Origin: Pirellulales bacterium
Lineage (GTDB): Bacteria > Planctomycetota > Planctomycetia > Pirellulales > JAEUIK01
DNA length: 64,000 bases
NCBI GenBank assembly: GCA_019745975.1
Contig: JAIESQ010000031.1
Location: forward strand, 62,001 to 126,000
Direction of reading: 5' to 3'
Part shown: in pieces, positions 14,259-48,275 of the stretch
How the letters are laid out: the number at the start of each line of letters is the position of its first letter
How positions within the stretch are numbered: the first letter of the stretch is position 1
Made by a program: the position numbers and the translations under genes
The notes under the pieces: model-generated
Databases searched by the model: none
Seen by the model: the letters and a program-made list of their open reading frames with translations, nothing else
What the model was told of the DNA's origin: nothing

Positions 14259-14695
<437 letters not shown>

Positions 14696-40044: not shown

Positions 40045-40707
40045 GAAGCGGGGCTTGGAGTTTCGCCCGATCTTAGGGCGGCGTAGCGGGTTGGGTCGAA
40101 TCCGCGATTGTAACGCGACGCGTCGGCAGTTGGCAATGAGGCGGCGCGTGCCAGATTGCGGCACTTAAAGGCACGCTTGAACGGCCTGTCCTACGTCTGG
40201 GGCCACAAGTCTCAAGCCTGGGGCTCTCGCCTCTGACCTCTGGACTCTGGCCTCCACTCGGGGGTCCCCCAGAATAAAGTTGTCCGGGAATTTGCGTCCG
40301 GGTGCGTCCGGGTGTGTTGATATTGGACCCGAACTCAAATAGGGGGCACAAGTTGGGGCGAATGTAACATCGCGCATTTTGCGTCCGGGTGATCGTCCGG
40401 TTTGCGTCCGGGTGTTTTGACGTTGGACCCGAACTCAAATAGAGGGAACAACTTGGGGCAAATGTAACACCGCGCAGTTTGCGTCCGGGTGGCGGTATCT
40501 ACCTTCCCCCTCTGATCTCTCGCCTCTGGCCTCTCGCCTGTTCCGTAGTTTTGCGTCAGGTTGGCGTTGTGGCTTGTGGTCGGTGGGTAGTGGCGAATGG
40601 CTGGCGGTCCGAGGGCACATACGCACGGTTACCCTGCGTTAACGTCGCAATGCCTTTGATATGATTCGCACTTCGTTACCGACGATCGACGACCCCGGTG
40701 CCCGCGA
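40045..40707. other. Repeat-rich intergenic gap upstream of the defence island
   Basis: No gene is visible in 663 bases. It holds two simple-sequence patches built on CCTCTGGCCTC (about 40213-40256 and 40500-40530) that bracket the 100-bp-period direct repeat. A reverse-oriented patch of the same motif occurs at about 45241-45262, on the far side of the defence genes. Confidence 0.6.
40294..40491 (+). repeat. Direct repeat, two 88-bp copies with exact 100-bp period
   Basis: Copies at 40304-40391 and 40404-40491 are about 90 percent identical. Each is bounded by GCGTCCGGGTG and contains TTGGACCCGAACTCAAATAG and a GGGGC-AATGTAACA block. The boundary motif GCGTCCGGGTG occurs at 40294, 40304, 40381, 40404 and 40481. 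No open frame spans the copies, and no palindrome dominates them. Confidence 0.8.
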
Positions 40708-41643
40708 ATGCCTGACTTGCAGGAGGCCATTGCTCGATTCGGCGCCGAGGCGAAGGCCAAGCTCGCCAATCCCGGCGCCACGGGCGAGCCCGAGGATCAA
40801 CTTCGCGCCCCGCTCGAAGCGCTCTTCGCCGATCTCGCGGCGCTTTGCGGCTTCAAACCCGGCTCAGTCGCGTCCGTTGGCGAGACCTCGCTGGCGACCC
40901 TCAAGACGCGCCCCGATTACGCGATCACGCTGCGAAATGTGCTGGTCGGCTTCGTCGAAGTCAAAGCGCCAGGCAAAGGGGCCGACCCGCGGCGCTACAA
41001 AGGGCACGACAAAGAGCAATGGGAAAAGCTGCAATCGCTCCCCAATTTGCTCTACACCGATGGCAACGCCTTCAGCTTCTGGCAGAACAGCGAGCTTGTC
41101 GGCTCGATCGTCGAGCGACAGGGAAACATTGAATCGTCGGGCACGAAACTCGCTGCGCCGCAAGAGCTCGTGGCGCGATTCGACAAGTTCCTGCGCTGGG
41201 AACCGATTCCGCCCAAGTCGGCCGCCGATCTAGCCAAAGTCGCGGCCCGGCTTTGTCGCCTGTTGCGCGACGAGGTCACCGAGCAACTCGCCCAGAAAAG
41301 TCCGGCTCTGACGGCGCTGGCCGCCGACTGGCGCAAGTTGCTATTTCCGGAAGCCAACGACGAGCAGTTCGCGGACGGCTATTCCCAGGCGGTCACGTTC
41401 GGGCTGTTGATGGCCCGCTCCAGCGACATCCGACTGGCCGACGGGCTCGACCAGGTCGGCCGTCAACTCGGCAAAACGAATTCGCTCATCGGCACCGCGC
41501 TGCGCATCCTGACCGACGAAGTCGGCAATGAGGCCACGCTGAAGACATCGCTGGGCGCGCTGGTTCGCGTGCTCGACTCAATACCAGCTTACGATAGGGT
41601 TGAATTTCGCACGCTCGCACTACGACGCCGAAATCCAGTATGA
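40708..41643 (+). pseudogene. 5' fragment of a large type ISP/IIG-like restriction-modification enzyme
   Basis: The 311 codons begin with MPDLQEAIARFGAEAKAKLA and carry a nuclease-like domain (TRPDYAIT at about 68-75, VGFVEVKAPGKGADPRRYKG, HDKEQWEKL, LPNLLYTDGN), that is, D and E-x-K of a PD-(D/E)XK fold. A helical linker ends at LGALVRVLDSIPAYD. I recall full-length relatives of about 1000 residues, in which an N6-adenine methylase (NPPY) and a target-recognition domain follow; here both are lost. The frame closes on a TGA shared with the start of the cytosine methyltransferase gene (ATGA). The truncated product may still be made. Confidence 0.78.
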
Positions 41644-42848
41644 TCGAGCACATGACCGACGAACTGCAACTTGTTGACCTGTTTTGCGGCGCCGGTGGAA
41701 TGACGCTAGGCTTCGTTAGGGCAGGCTTTGAGGCGGCCGCCGCTTACGACAATTGGGAATGCGCGACAAAGACATACGAGCGCAACTTAGGCGAACACAT
41801 TCAGTGCGCGTCGATTTGCGAGGATTTGGAGCTTCCCGCAGCCAGAGTGATCGTGGGCGGCCCGCCCTGCCAGGGTTTCTCGTCTGCCGGCGCTCGTCGT
41901 AGTAACGATCACCGCAACACGCTTGTCGCCGTGTTTGCTCGCCTTATCGCTAGGCATCGACCACATGCGTTCGTCTTCGAGAACGTTGAAGGTTTCCTGA
42001 CCGGTGGCGATGGCCGTTTTATCTTCGATTTGCTCGACCCGCTGATCGAGGCGGGTTATCGCGTTCACCTGAGGAAGGTGAACGCCGCAAACTTTGGAGT
42101 GCCGCAGCACCGCAAGCGGGTTTTGGGCATTGGCGGCTTGGGTTGGGATCCAACGTTTCCCGCGCCGACTCATAGCGCGCACGGAGCGCCCGGCGCACTT
42201 TTGGGCGGCACACATCTGCCCTTGACACCGTCGATCACCGACGCCTTGTGCGGGCTCCCTGCCGCGACGATCGGAAACGACGGCAACGATCACGCCTATT
42301 CGCTGCTCGAAGGGCTCGACCTGGAGCGGGCGCGGCGTCTGAGACCAGGCCAACGAATGCGCGACTTGCCTGAGGAGCTTTGGCATGAAAGCTACAAACG
42401 GCGCGCCTATAGGCGTGTAATGGACGGCACACCCGTCGAGAAGCGCGGCGGAGCGCCTGCCGGTCTACGCCGGCTGCGGGCGGACGAGCCTTCAAAGGCC
42501 ATTACTGGCGCAGCAATAAACGAGTTCCTCCATCCCGCAGAAGATCGTCCGCTAACGGTGCGAGAATGCGCACGCATCCAAACATTTCCCGACGACTTTG
42601 AATTCGTCGGATCACGGCGCGACCGTGCTCAGCAGATTGGTAACGCCGTACCACCGCATTTCGCGGAGGTAATAGCGCGAACCTTATTGCACGACTTGCG
42701 TACGAGGCTTGAAAACTCGAACCCGGGCGCGCTACTGAGCTTCACGCCGACTCTTTCCAGTGGCATGAGTCCGGTTCTAAATGAGGTTAGGAAGAAGGTT
42801 GAGAAGAGGTACCGTATCCACGCCAGGCAGCCGATGTTATGGGACTGA
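41640..42848 (+). CDS. C5-cytosine-specific DNA methyltransferase
   Basis: A 402-residue m5C methyltransferase. Motif I is LVDLFCGAGGMTLGF (SAM binding). Motif IV is VGGPPCQGFSSAG with catalytic Cys77, motif VI is FENVEGF, motif VIII lies around FGVPQHRKRV, and motifs IX-X include RECARIQTFPDDF and QQIGNAVPP. The target-recognition region between VIII and IX is about 130 residues; its DNA sequence specificity cannot be read. It starts inside the stop codon of the truncated upstream gene and overlaps the nuclease gene by 10 bp. Composition looks less GC-rich than the flanks, suggesting transfer. Confidence 0.93.
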   Translation: MIEHMTDELQLVDLFCGAGGMTLGFVRAGFEAAAAYDNWECATKTYERNLGEHIQCASICEDLELPAARVIVGGPPCQGFSSAGARRSNDHRNTLVAVFARLIARHRPHAFVFENVEGFLTGGDGRFIFDLLDPLIEAGYRVHLRKVNAANFGVPQHRKRVLGIGGLGWDPTFPAPTHSAHGAPGALLGGTHLPLTPSITDALCGLPAATIGNDGNDHAYSLLEGLDLERARRLRPGQRMRDLPEELWHESYKRRAYRRVMDGTPVEKRGGAPAGLRRLRADEPSKAITGAAINEFLHPAEDRPLTVRECARIQTFPDDFEFVGSRRDRAQQIGNAVPPHFAEVIARTLLHDLRTRLENSNPGALLSFTPTLSSGMSPVLNEVRKKVEKRYRIHARQPMLWD

Positions 42849-43897
42849 GTCGCGCACAAATGGCAATCGTGCAGAAGGCTTGCGCGCTTGGTGCGGGGAA
42901 GCAGGGGGTCGCGCTCTCAGAAGCCGCTTGCACATACCTCCTGGCGATCGAAGTGCAAGATATGGCTCTTGGTTCTCATTTCCCGGAACTTCCGCGTAGC
43001 CTAATTCCGTTCTTTGGTCCTGAGCCGTTCGCTGATCGCGAAATCCCCGGATTGCAGTTCCTAACATTGTTCGAGCGTCTCGTTGGACTGGCGGTCGACG
43101 CCGATACGTATTTCTCGTGCTTGGCTTGGCTTCACAAGCTTCGACTCAAATACGAGCTTGTGCTAAAGACGCAAGCCATTCCAACGATGGATCAAGTGGG
43201 CCCGCGCGGCCTGCTTCAGTATGGGACCGCACCAGACGCGGCGCTTCCGCCACTCATGCAGTGGCGAAAGTGGTTTTTTGACATCGACAACAGAGCGGCA
43301 CAACTGACAGGGTACCTCTTCGAGCCGATTCTCGCGGCTGCCCTTGGCGGTACCCCAGCCAGCGCGAGGAAAAGCCCCGTCCGTCGGCGGAACAACTCAT
43401 CGAAGGGACGGCAGGTCGACTGCGTACGCGAGAAGGACGCTTACGAGTTCAAGATCAGGCTGACAATAGCGGCATCGGGGCAGGGGCGTTGGTCTGAAGA
43501 GCTTGACTTTGCACCGGATTGCCAAGCTAGCGGTTTTCGGCCGATCCTGGTCGTCCTTGACCCAACGCCAAACTCCCGGTTGTCAGAACTACAACAGGTC
43601 TTCCGAGAGAATGGGGGTGAAGCGTATGTCGGAGACGCGGCATGGCAGCATTTGGAGTCGGAAGCCGGTGACGTGATGGGACGTTTCTTAAAGCAATATG
43701 TTCAGCAACCGATTCAGGCACTCCTGGCTGCCGCGCCAGTTGCTCTCCCACCATTAGTGGCGACCGATCGAGGTGAGTCAATCGATCTGATGATTGGCGA
43801 CGATTCGATTAGAATCGCGCGCTCGCGTGAAACAGTCGCCGCCGAAGACGACGACCTAATCCCCGATGACATTGATGATCAGGTGCCAGGTGTATGA
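42839..43897 (+). CDS. Putative type II restriction endonuclease, PD-(D/E)XK-like
   Basis: A 352-residue protein translated from an ATG inside the end of the methyltransferase gene. The likely active site is Asp194 in GRQVDCVREKD with Glu203 and Lys205 in AYEFKIR, the spacing of a PD-(D/E)XK nuclease. Glu162 (FEPIL) may be the additional helix acid. No helicase or methylase motifs are present. Position between an m5C methyltransferase and a Vsr gene makes a cognate restriction enzyme the best reading. I could not place it in a named family. The C-terminus is acidic (EDDDLIPDDIDD). Confidence 0.72.
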   Translation: MGLSRAQMAIVQKACALGAGKQGVALSEAACTYLLAIEVQDMALGSHFPELPRSLIPFFGPEPFADREIPGLQFLTLFERLVGLAVDADTYFSCLAWLHKLRLKYELVLKTQAIPTMDQVGPRGLLQYGTAPDAALPPLMQWRKWFFDIDNRAAQLTGYLFEPILAAALGGTPASARKSPVRRRNNSSKGRQVDCVREKDAYEFKIRLTIAASGQGRWSEELDFAPDCQASGFRPILVVLDPTPNSRLSELQQVFRENGGEAYVGDAAWQHLESEAGDVMGRFLKQYVQQPIQALLAAAPVALPPLVATDRGESIDLMIGDDSIRIARSRETVAAEDDDLIPDDIDDQVPGV

Positions 43898-44367
43898 GTT
43901 CTTTGCGCATCCGAGCACCGGTTTCGTCCTCCCTCGTCGTGCGCAGGGTGATGCAAGCGAACACCGGACGCGAGACACATCCGGAGCGATTCGTCCGGCG
44001 TTTTCTGCACCGTTGCGGCCTGCGATTCCGAAAGGACCGCCGTCCCGTCCCTGCGCTACGATGCGCCGCTGATCTCGTGTTTCCTGGTGCAAGACTGTGC
44101 ATCTTCGTCGACGGCTGTTTCTGGCACGGGTGCCCAAAGCACTTCCGCGTGCCAGCATCAAATAGCGCTTGGTGGGCGGAAAAAATTGAGGCAAATCGAG
44201 CGAGGGACCACCGCAACAACGCGATTTTGAGACGCGATGGTTGGTGTGTAATTCGGATTTGGGAGCACCAAGTTAACCCCCGTTTTTTGGCCGAGCTGGA
44301 GTCGAGGATTCTAAGAAGAATGCGCAGGACCCACGGTCGCCAAAGGAAAGTCAACGTCCTTTCTTGA
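43894..44367 (+). CDS. vsr: Very short patch repair (Vsr) endonuclease
   Basis: A 157-residue Vsr nickase that cuts next to T in T:G mismatches left by deamination of 5-methylcytosine. Motifs are MQANTGRETHPERFVRR and CAADLVFPGARLCIFVDGCF (Asp metal ligand), then WHGCPKHFRVPASNSAWWAE and DGWCVIRIWEHQ. The first ATG overlaps the nuclease stop (ATGA). The Met at residue 20, where family similarity begins, is an alternative start. Its presence supports a genuine m5C-producing system. Confidence 0.92.
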   Translation: MSSLRIRAPVSSSLVVRRVMQANTGRETHPERFVRRFLHRCGLRFRKDRRPVPALRCAADLVFPGARLCIFVDGCFWHGCPKHFRVPASNSAWWAEKIEANRARDHRNNAILRRDGWCVIRIWEHQVNPRFLAELESRILRRMRRTHGRQRKVNVLS

Positions 44368-44407
44368 CTCCGCTGCTAAGGGCGCCGTCCCTGATGACGC
44401 CGAATCG

Positions 44408-44752
44408 ATGCCCGACGAAATCGAATACGACGCCGCGCGGCAGCGCTTGCTCGTCGGCACGGGCTACATCGACAACGTGCCGGCCGCCGTGTGGGACTAC
44501 GAGGTCTCGGGCAAGCGCGTGTTGACGCAATGGTTCAGTTATCGTAAGAAAAATCGGGAGCGGCCGATCATCGGCGACCGCCGCCCGCCGTCGAAACTGG
44601 GAGACATTCAGCCCGACCACTGGCTGGCCGAGTACACCAGCGAACTGTTGAACGTGCTGCACGTTCTGGCGCTACTCGTCGAGATGGAACCGGCCCAATC
44701 GCAACTTTTGGAGGCGATCTGTGACACGCCGACACTTGATTTCGGAGGATGA
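44408..44752 (+). pseudogene. 3' fragment of the same large restriction-modification enzyme
   Basis: The 114 codons contain YDAARQRLLVGTGYIDNVPA, VWDYEVSGKRVLTQWFSYRK and DHWLAEYTSELLNVLHVLALL. They match the extreme C-terminus of type ISP/IIG-like enzymes, which recall has as VWxYxVSGxxVxxxWxxYR followed by ELLxLLxVLxxT. With the fragment at 40708-41643 it forms the two ends of one ancestral gene; about 500-600 central codons are missing and the m5C cassette occupies the gap. The ATG at 44408 may be fortuitous. Confidence 0.75.
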
Positions 44753-44951
44753 ACTGCGAGCAGCCGGAGCCTTGGACGTGCCGCCCGAGTGGCGCAAGTC
44801 GCTGAGCGCTGGGTGCAAGCCTCGCGAGCAAATGCTGTTCGCCGACGACGACCTGTACCCTGAGGCGCAACCGTCCATGGCGGCCGCGGCGGATGAGTGC
44901 GACGCCGATGAATCCGAGGACGGTGACGAAGCCGCGGACGACGAGGAGTGA
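44721..44951 (+). CDS. Small acidic hypothetical protein downstream of the RM remnant
   Basis: A 76-residue protein starting at a GTG with an excellent GGAGG at 6-nt spacing, overlapping the end of the restriction-modification fragment by 32 nt. The N-terminal part (RRHLISEDELRAAGALDVPPEW) is helical, and the C-terminus is strongly acidic (DADESEDGDEAADDEE), as in DNA mimics or chaperone-like tails. It was probably coupled to the ancestral large enzyme gene. No family recognised. Confidence 0.65.
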   Translation: MTRRHLISEDELRAAGALDVPPEWRKSLSAGCKPREQMLFADDDLYPEAQPSMAAAADECDADESEDGDEAADDEE

Positions 44952-44997
44952 TCGTCGCGAGAGATCGCGTTCGGAACGGCGAGAGGGGCGATTCTCT

Positions 44998-45018
44998 GGT
45001 GCGTTTCACGCACCCTAC
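44998..45018 (+). repeat. Single copy of the GGTGCGT-TTC-ACGCACC hairpin
   Basis: The sequence is the hairpin core followed by CTAC, identical to the core of the tandem units at 45415-45624. It is a candidate founder or sibling copy. Confidence 0.8.
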
Positions 45019-45076
45019 CGTGCTATCGCTGGCATGTCGGATTGGTGTTGCGTCGCTGCGTAGCGGCCGGGGGAAC

Positions 45077-45148
45077 ATGTCGCCGCGGCGCGGCTGGATG
45101 GTTTGATCGCGACACGGTTCCGTGGGTTGGCACCCACGGCTGTGCGCT
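45077..45148 (+). repeat. Dispersed intergenic repeat, diverged copy of 12405-12472
   Basis: Both copies share ATGTCGCCGC-GCGCGGCT, then CGCGAC-CGGTTCCGTGGG and CCCACGGCT-GCGC in the same order and spacing. The second half forms a hairpin CCGTGGG/CCCACGG. Confidence 0.65.
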
Positions 45149-45414
45149 TTGCGCCGCTCGGCGCGGCAAGAGAACATCACCGAGCACGAGCCGAGTCGGC
45201 CCAGCCAGGGGCACACGGAGGAACAGGCAAGAGGCGCCATGTCAGAGGCGAGAGGTCAGAGAAGATAAGGATTCCCTCGCTGCGCCTACGACCGCAAGAG
45301 TAACACGCGCCGGAACTGGAATGAACGACCCTTTCAGGGTCGGAGGTCGATTCGGACCGTGTTCCCAGGCCTGCGGCCTGGGCTGACAGAACCGGCCCTT
45401 CAGGCCGGGAAAGG

Positions 45415-45624
45415 TGGTGCGTTTCACGCACCCTACAGATGCTGTGGTGCGTTTCACGCACCCTACAGATGCTGTGGTGCGTTTCACGCACCCTACAGAT
45501 GCTGTGGTGCGTTTCACGCACCCTACAGATGCTGTGGTGCGTTTCGCGCACCCTACAAATGCTGTGGTGCGTTTCACGCACCCTACAAATGCTGTGGTGC
45601 GTTTCACGCACCCTACAAATGCTA
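45415..45624 (+). repeat. Tandem array of seven 30-bp palindromic units
   Basis: Seven units of exactly 30 bp, each beginning TGGTGCGTTTCACGCACCCT and ending in ACA(G/A)ATGCTG. Each carries a 7-bp stem GGTGCGT/ACGCACC with a TTC loop. Units 1-4 read ACAGATG and units 5-7 ACAAATG; unit 5 has one further change in the loop/stem, and the last unit ends in CTA, the stop codon (TAG) of the minus-strand gene. There are no variable spacers, so it is not CRISPR. Confidence 0.95.
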
Positions 45625-46734
45625 CTTCACCGGTGGCAAGACTTGTTCGATCGCAGGCCCGCTGCGGGGGACGGCGGAGTGGTAGTCTTCGCCCAATAGC
45701 GCGGCGAGCGTCGCGGCGATTTGACTTTGCGTGACGCGATCGCACGCGGTCCGTTCGCCCAAGGGGGGCGTGTCGGGCCCGAGCACGGCGATCCAGATAT
45801 TCTCCGCCCCCTCGACGCGCGGACCGTGATTCTTCCAATCGACCAGGCCTGAGCCACGCCCATGGTCGGTGGAAATGATCAGCGTGGTCTGGTCGCGATA
45901 CTGGTCGAGCGACTGCAGCGTTTCCCACAGGCGTTGGATGTACCCGTCGACGGCATGGGCCGAGGTGAGCAGGTTGTCGTAGCGGCCGGCGTGTCCCCAA
46001 GCGTCGGTCTCGAGAAAGCCGACGTAGAGGACGCGCGGTTTGTGCCGCAGCAGATGCTCGCGAGCGGCTTGAAAGAGAAACGAATCGATGACTTCGGCGT
46101 TGTTGGGGCGCGTGGTGTCGGCGATCAGCTCGTTGAGGAGCTGCTGCCGAGGGTTGGGCTCAGCTTCGGGGAGCGGTTCCCAGCCCCCCATCACGGGAAA
46201 ACCGGCTCGCTCGCGGTTGATAACGTAGGGGATGACGTCCCACGCGCTATAAGCGGCCACCTTGCCGCCGAAGGCCGGCTGGCGGTGCAGCCATTCGAGG
46301 ACCGTAAAGTTCTGGTTCGGCTTCTTAGCGTTGCTGTCGATGAGCGGATCGAAGAAGCCGGTGAGGATTTCGTTGTAGCCGGGGTACGAGAACTTCTTCG
46401 TGTTGGTGATCTGGGCCGAGCTGCCCTTGGGCGCGTTGCCGTAGAGCTGCCCTTGGCGGGCAATTATCTTCCAGAAAAAGGGGAGCAGGGCTTCGCGGCG
46501 CGCTTCGGGAGTGTCGCGCCAGAACTGGGCTTCGAGGGCTTTGACGTCGGCGACGCCGCCATGCTGCTTGTTGAGCAGGGCCTGCTCGGCGCCGGTGAAG
46601 ACCTCCTGCCAGCGGAGGCCGTCGGTGGTGATCAGGACGACGTTTCGTGTTTTGAGGTCGGCCGCGCTGGTGGTTGCGGGCGAGAAAAGCAACACGACGA
46701 GGAGGATGCACCGAAGCAGTCTCCAAACCAGCAT
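45622..46734 (-). CDS. Exported alkaline-phosphatase/sulfatase-fold protein
   Basis: A 370-residue protein with a signal peptide (MLVWRLLRCILLVVLLFSPATTSAA). It opens with VVLITTDGLRWQEVFTGAE and contains FLETDAWGHAGRYDNLL and TLIISTDHGRGSG, metal-ligand positions of the alkaline phosphatase superfamily. The catalytic residue region around NTKKFSYPGYNEI has no CxPxR, so it is not a formylglycine sulfatase; it is more like a nucleotide pyrophosphatase/phosphodiesterase relative. The longer frame to 46959 crosses a dispersed repeat and was rejected. Its stop codon lies in the last unit of the tandem array. Confidence 0.83.
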   Translation of the reverse strand: MLVWRLLRCILLVVLLFSPATTSAADLKTRNVVLITTDGLRWQEVFTGAEQALLNKQHGGVADVKALEAQFWRDTPEARREALLPFFWKIIARQGQLYGNAPKGSSAQITNTKKFSYPGYNEILTGFFDPLIDSNAKKPNQNFTVLEWLHRQPAFGGKVAAYSAWDVIPYVINRERAGFPVMGGWEPLPEAEPNPRQQLLNELIADTTRPNNAEVIDSFLFQAAREHLLRHKPRVLYVGFLETDAWGHAGRYDNLLTSAHAVDGYIQRLWETLQSLDQYRDQTTLIISTDHGRGSGLVDWKNHGPRVEGAENIWIAVLGPDTPPLGERTACDRVTQSQIAATLAALLGEDYHSAVPRSGPAIEQVLPPVK

Positions 46735-46780: not shown

Positions 46781-46813
<33 letters not shown>

Positions 46814-48004: not shown

Positions 48005-48025
48005 GGTACGCACGGAGTGCGTACC
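48005..48025 (+). repeat. Intergenic hairpin GGTACGCAC-GGA-GTGCGTACC
   Basis: A perfect 9-bp stem with a 3-nt loop followed by CTACG, 12 nt after a stop codon. It has the same plan (GGT-GCG stem, 3-nt loop, ACC then CTAC) as the 45415 array units, so it probably belongs to the same repeat superfamily. No T-tract follows, which argues against an intrinsic terminator. Confidence 0.65.
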
Positions 48026-48275
48026 CTACGTCTCGGCGGCGCGCCGTCAACGTGATGGCGCGCTGTCATCGATTCGGCTCCAAAGGCGCCCGCTTGGTGA
48101 CTTGGCGCTTCTGATCGGTCGCCGCGGTATCTTTCGGCTGAGCCGAGCTTTATGGCTGAGCATGCCGGTCGCTGGATACTATTGGCGACGCCGGCATCGG
48201 GATTGCCCCTAACTCGAATCAGTAGGGCCAATGCCTGGAAGCGACACATTCCTCAAGCTTGGGAAGGGACGTTGC

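Follow-up and report, generated by a model that had tools for sequence, protein, structure and literature searches.

The GTAG-tagged REPs form a super-family whose members have a GTAG foot, a stem of 6-13 bp and a short loop (Di Nocera et al. 2013; PMC3733652). As described in the same paper, clusters of these elements are repeated along with flanking DNA, and the Planctomycetes are included among their hosts. In Escherichia coli, two different palindromes, Y and Z2, delimit a single gene (yafM) for a REP-associated tyrosine transposase (RAYT) and form composite repeats (BIME-2), for which the term 'dimorphic REPs' is used (PMC2817692). For Pseudomonas fluorescens SBW25, head-to-head doublets are described as mobile, and REPs of a single type also form tandem arrays with even spacing there (PMC3116915). 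The group 3 REPtron of Stenotrophomonas maltophilia has a perfect palindrome, a 3-nt loop and a CT cleavage site. The TnpA-REP enzymes of E. coli and S. maltophilia nick single-stranded REPs at CT, with the GTAG being crucial or important (PMC8266576).

Here, we describe a palindromic tandem array in the window, the whole stretch of 64,000 nucleotides that was analyzed. This array is very probably a tandem amplification of type A GTAG-REP monomers that belong to a dimorphic REP/RAYT system of the same genome. The features concerned are the following.

44998-45018, minus strand: single REP A at the opposite end of the same convergent intergenic stretch.
45414-45623, minus strand: seven-unit array; every unit is made up of one type A GTAG-REP and a further 9 nt (ACAGCATTT or ACAGCATCT, minus-strand sense).
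45416-45436, minus strand: REP A of unit 1, at the end away from the gene.
45446-45466, 45476-45496 and 45506-45526, minus strand: REP A, units 2-4.
45536-45556, minus strand: REP A, unit 5, in which GGTGCGC replaces GGTGCGT and the innermost stem pair is broken.
45566-45586, minus strand: REP A, unit 6.
45596-45616, minus strand: REP A, unit 7, adjoining the gene.
45622-46734, minus strand: phosphodiesterase/nucleotide pyrophosphatase-like gene; its stop codon adjoins the array, and its start codon was inferred from relatives.
48005-48029, minus strand: GTAGGGTACGCACTCCGTGCGTACC, a GTAG palindrome whose stem, of 9 bp around a TCC loop, is not that of REP A.

Tandem Repeats Finder (TRF) reports seven 30-bp units head to tail (period 30, 7.0 copies, 98% matches), and a unit-by-unit alignment agrees with the tandem array of seven near-identical units that an earlier note on this DNA had described. 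The coordinates given there (45415-45624) are off by one from the TRF boundaries, the phase being arbitrary. As the array is near-exact and spans 210 bp in a draft of 204 contigs, its number of units may be miscounted. All seven units vary at only two positions: units 1-4 are mutually identical, units 5-7 carry a G-to-A change at unit position 25, and unit 5 has an extra A-to-G change at position 13. The one-base difference between units 1-4 and 5-7 was thus correctly noticed, apart from the further change in unit 5. The two rounds of expansion read from it are consistent with the two unit types, as other histories may be too.

Read on the minus strand, each unit consists of GTAG-GGTGCGT-GAA-ACGCACC, with GGTGCGC instead in unit 5, and 9 nt separate successive palindromes. 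The GTAG foot is present in 7/7 units and the 7-bp stem with its 3-nt loop in 6/7, so that, as in the GTAG-tagged REPs, a short palindrome carries an unpaired GTAG at one foot. The GTAG foot had been overlooked in the earlier note, as had the extent of the family and the transposase described below. The lone copy of the core reported at 44998 is an exact type A REP. The relative reported at 48005 is indeed a GTAG palindrome, but its 9-bp stem is a different one, and it counts four exact copies and two with one mismatch in the genome.

The array palindrome belongs to a large dispersed family. In the draft genome (6,976,653 bases, 204 contigs), the type A palindrome GTAGGGTGCGTNNNACGCACC has 91 exact copies, whereas the reversed pattern has none, which argues that the palindrome is not due to chance. 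The same search found GTAGGGTGCGTNNNACGCACC in 0/56 relatives. A sister palindrome, type B (GTAGGGTGTGC-NNN-GCACACC; GTAGGGTGTGCNNNGCACACC), has 83 exact copies genome-wide and, again, no reversed ones. These whole-genome counts are free of sampling bias and display the high copy number and dispersal within one genome that characterize GTAG-tagged REPs. Further counts come from 61 stretches (1,166,099 bases). As 20 of these and several more were picked for their REPs or Y1 genes, the counts of hairpin tags, neighbors, pairs, CT sites and intergenic clusters given below describe a non-random sample. In these partly REP-chosen stretches, 118 of 4731 GTAG occurrences stand before a perfect hairpin (24.9 per 1000), the highest rank of all 256 tetranucleotides at the hairpin foot (median, 0.82 per 1000). 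Stem A (58) or B (39) accounts for 97 of these 118 hairpins.

In the stretches examined, REPs that lie head to head, with GTAG outwards and less than 200 bp apart, are always one A and one B (30/30 pairs at 21/21 sites, with gaps of 9-54 bp; 31/31 under a looser rule). After reduction to a single copy of each type per 2-kb site, the chance of an all-A/B outcome under random pairing is about 6e-7. Two REPs head to head thus form a repeated unit in this genome, as in REPINs. Head-to-tail neighbors are A-A (17) or B-B (3), and the 13 tail-to-tail neighbors are A/B. The clusters are mainly intergenic, as 28/32 lie outside ORFs in a rough gene model that takes up 76% of the bases and misses short genes. 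Among the 19 of these 28 clusters with a model gene on both sides (the other nine were left out), an apparent avoidance of divergent gaps was not retained (1/19 versus 86/404; Fisher p 0.14).

A RAYT gene framed by the two palindromes is present in the same genome. It was found at positions 19262-19813 of contig C163 (genome G000) with the RAYT of another genome (L219) as the query. Its product scores 171 bits as a REP-associated tyrosine transposase (NCBIfam NF047646; cut-off, 80), and 22.2 bits against Pfam PF01797 (Y1_Tnp), which is below the cut-off of 23. The gene has an exact A 56 bp upstream of its ATG; 76 bp downstream of its stop codon follows an exact B in the inverted orientation. 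By eye, a decayed-looking second B copy stands between that stop codon and the exact B. The gene is therefore framed by cognate REPs in inverted orientation, the arrangement of a REPtron. Since this RAYT sits inside the same A...B frame as the gene-less pairs, the family is read as a dimorphic REP/RAYT system like that of E. coli Y/Z2.

Fifteen other PF01797 (Y1_Tnp) hits in the genome have neither A nor B in the flanks scanned. The impression of an orphan system that they gave was abandoned with the framed gene on C163. Scoring of 14 of these 15 proteins against NCBIfam (L011, with an internal stop, was left out) brought the number of RAYTs above the NF047646 cut-off to five, with the C163 protein scoring best. 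The four others, L009, L010, L015 and L019 (107, 88, 96 and 93 bits), have no A or B in the flanks scanned. Most of the rest fall below the cut-off, several of them just under it. The idea of a single-RAYT genome is refuted by these four, and the frame of A and B is a feature of the C163 gene alone. The other RAYT and Y1 genes go with other repeats, although the RAYTs among them could act on A.

Some observations on these genes and their repeats were made in passing. By eye, longer repeats of other kinds flank the Y1-transposase genes L005, L007, L008, L012 and L013 on one or both sides, and several transposase/repeat pairs seem to coexist in the genome. A second abundant palindrome, CACTGCTGG-(3-7 nt)-CCAGCAGTG, has 70 both-strand matches at approximately 35 places in 1.17 Mb, including positions 14460 and 46785 of the window as well as L014, L016 and L018. 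It flanks Y1-transposase genes on both sides on C138 and C80 and upstream on C29 (by eye). The copy at 46785 lies inside an N-terminal extension of the phosphodiesterase ORF. As residues 35-100, approximately, match at least 29 other places in the genome (30 of 121 candidates scored), the extension is probably not protein. Finally, a transposase frame on C165 (L005:106-984, minus strand) opens with a repeated GVKRC. This stretch has a match of 23.2 bits, below the cut-off of 30, to a RiPP peptide family with a cysteine at every fifth residue and is probably a translated DNA repeat.

Compared with the described systems, the family shares with E. coli Y/Z2, BIME-2 and yafM the two palindromes around a RAYT gene and the composite repeats. 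It differs in its stem sequences and in that its stems are perfect over 7 bp, without a bulge, and carry a 3-nt loop, and the relatives of its host are planctomycetes. Head-to-head doublets and one-type tandem arrays are held in common with the REPINs of SBW25, in which, unlike the pairs found here, doublets are rarely of mixed type. The perfect palindrome, 3-nt loop, GTAG and CT also occur in S. maltophilia group 3, but the stem there is 8 bp long, the loop is another one, and the enzyme has been assayed, whereas the present one is known from sequence. The GTAG foot, stem range, short loop and clusters repeated with flanking DNA are all shared with the super-family of Di Nocera et al. The array and the A/B family are thus ordinary representatives of a class of bacterial repeats already known, and we do not claim the family as unpublished.

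Relatives of the C163 RAYT (E value, 1e-20) occur in 69/396 genomes of the order, 48 of which have a single match. At the RAYT loci fetched from the order, a GTAG hairpin lies within 350 bp in 15/31 cases, on both sides in 13; the corresponding figures for loci from named genomes (Blastopirellula, Psychrobacter and others) are 12/30 and 10, the two sets having at least two loci in common. The comparison tags GATG, GGTA, TGAG, AGTG, CTAC and CGTC were each found at 0-3 of the 31 loci and 0-7 of the 30, and TAGG, which overlaps GTAGG, at 11 and 6. No GTAG hairpin was found within 350 bp at 16/31 and 18/30 loci. In G004, a genome of the same family and the nearest relative with a RAYT (54% identity), a different GTAG palindrome lies beside the gene. 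As a separate observation, the RAYTs of L248 and L263 (genomes of the order) and L274 (a named planctomycete) are framed by close stem variants (GTAGGGTGCGTC...), and the L274 RAYT has two palindrome types, as in the genome studied here.

The A palindrome itself has its own distribution. The A 21-mer, GTAGGGTGCGTGMAACGCACC, occurs in 13/396 genomes of the order and in 1/7 genomes of the host's own family. Five genomes of one other family carry 38, 21, 96, 67 and 192 copies. Among 21 distinct A sites fetched from outside the host genome, six are exact A/A pairs, 15-16 bp apart; for the other 15, no exact partner lies within 80 bases, and 0/21 are A/B. A scan of the flanks of 50 of the 72 Y1 hits in six other genomes revealed no A hairpin; in those genomes, the genes related to L219 and L224 either stand between other GTAG palindromes or show none. 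The ORFs beside A copies in other genomes share nothing consistent, and in G078, the genome with 38 A copies, the C163 RAYT has no relative at E 1e-20. The same palindrome may therefore have originated or spread on more than one occasion, and its presence need not depend on an A-framed RAYT.

The product of the gene adjoining the array scores 30.1 bits against PF01663, type I phosphodiesterase/nucleotide pyrophosphatase (cut-off, 23). The stop codon of the gene (the complement of CTA at 45622-45624) straddles the edge of the array, with two of its three bases in unit 7 in the TRF phase. To this extent, the last unit supplies the TAG, as the earlier note had put it. However, the protein ends in VLPPVK, which aligns with the final residues of the four closest relatives (VLPAAK, VLPAAD, ALPPIK and VLPAAK), while two more distant relatives end in LLPASK and VFRSAN. 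The protein end is therefore inherited, whatever bases now encode the stop, and the array lies 3' of the gene. On the other side of the array are plus-strand genes, including a cytosine methylase and a Vsr endonuclease, which makes the stretch from approximately 44953 to 45621 intergenic between convergent genes; the final small frame on the plus strand was identified by eye. At 41640-44752, the cytosine methylase, a weak sub-cut-off match to an ApaLI-like endonuclease, Vsr and a C-terminal fragment of a Type ISP protein stand in a row, a possible restriction-modification island. In addition, two direct repeats of 100 bp (88% matches) with GCGTCCGGGTG inside are found at 40295-40491.

This position, starting at a stop codon and lying between convergent genes, invites the view that the array is a selected 3'-UTR element, whose consecutive RNA hairpins would block 3' exonucleases or insulate the convergent genes. 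The array's minus-strand RNA has a folding energy of -108.9 kcal/mol (z -6.57 versus shuffles), but such a low energy is expected of any array of palindromes, and in the best fold it is largely adjacent units that pair, in place of seven separate hairpins. The earlier suggestion that the array ends transcripts gained no support from a scan for intrinsic terminators (a GC-rich hairpin with a T-run), which gave 0 terminator-like sites in 44900-45700 versus 0.7 expected in shuffles. Moreover, an A or B hairpin is absent from 11/11 loci of the gene's relatives (flanks up to 1.5 kb; one of the 11 has an unrelated GTAG hairpin), while the same palindrome occurs at many unrelated sites of the genome. 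Selection for such a 3'-UTR function is thus unlikely, although stabilization of the mRNA by the predicted hairpins is possible. Any effect of the array on the mRNA of the gene is most likely secondary. The short, regular, palindromic repeats could also bring a CRISPR or a protein-coding repeat to mind, as the 30-bp period keeps frames open across the array. These frames are open because the period is a multiple of three. The 9-nt spacers are identical except for one base, instead of unique, and the palindrome is dispersed genome-wide, both single and paired, which leaves this reading with hardly any credibility.

Replication slippage or unequal recombination alone could make the array, and slippage would be expected to yield its head-to-tail copies, site-specific spacers and identical adjacent units. 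That a RAYT had no role after a first insertion has, in our judgment, a little less than an even chance of being correct. On the other side, a CT beside GTAG is enriched, and the genome holds several REP arrays, which make nicking by a RAYT a plausible trigger, without being decisive. In the non-random stretches described above, a CT starting at -4 to -2 of GTAG was found in 27/55 site-picked copies (thinned from 94 exact ones by the same rule of one per 2-kb site and type) versus 740/4754 GTAG sites (Fisher p 5e-9). By analogy with the assayed enzymes, this enrichment would fit an enzyme that nicks the REP at CT. A or A/B units stand head to tail at several other sites of the genome, with periods of 28 bp (C41), 40 bp (C42), 154 bp (C185) and others, and with spacers that are all different. 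Arrays with individual spacers and periods point to local growth, as described for other REPs (PMC3733652; PMC3116915).

In the window array, GTAG is preceded by CATCT in units 1-4, distal to the gene, and by CATTT in the gene-proximal units 5-7. It is conceivable, if rather improbable, that the array records monomer growth driven by a RAYT: with the gain, in units 1-4, of CT, the published cleavage dinucleotide, directly before GTAG, a REP that had been static would have become a 30-nt unit, cut on both sides and copied again in tandem. The spacer was dropped as proof of a copied 3' end of the gene. As AGCATTT also precedes GTAG beside A on two other contigs (L084 and L097), it is possible that the element brought the spacer with it.

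To return to the tandem amplification of type A GTAG-REP monomers as the preferred explanation, the REP part of the expanding REP-like element proposed earlier is confirmed in more definite form, as a GTAG-REP of two types that frame a RAYT gene. Judging by homology, the C163 RAYT would be a tyrosine HUH nuclease that recognizes single-stranded GTAG hairpins and nicks at the adjacent CT. Either its nicking or hairpin slippage may have spread A/B units between genes. Later copying of an A monomer with 9 nt of neighboring sequence would then have placed seven units behind the phosphodiesterase-like gene. Counting against this explanation, the window array is made of A only and not of A/B pairs; with all seven units in a single orientation, it does not consist of REPINs. 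Most probably, the dynamics of the element itself produced the array as a side effect, and we propose that it is tolerated because it lies between convergent genes.

A special regulatory explanation for the window array is thus no longer needed. The family provides a further dimorphic REP/RAYT system, and a well-marked one, in a genome with planctomycete relatives. With one framed RAYT, two palindromes and several array periods, it also offers a compact natural array for the study of how REP arrays grow.
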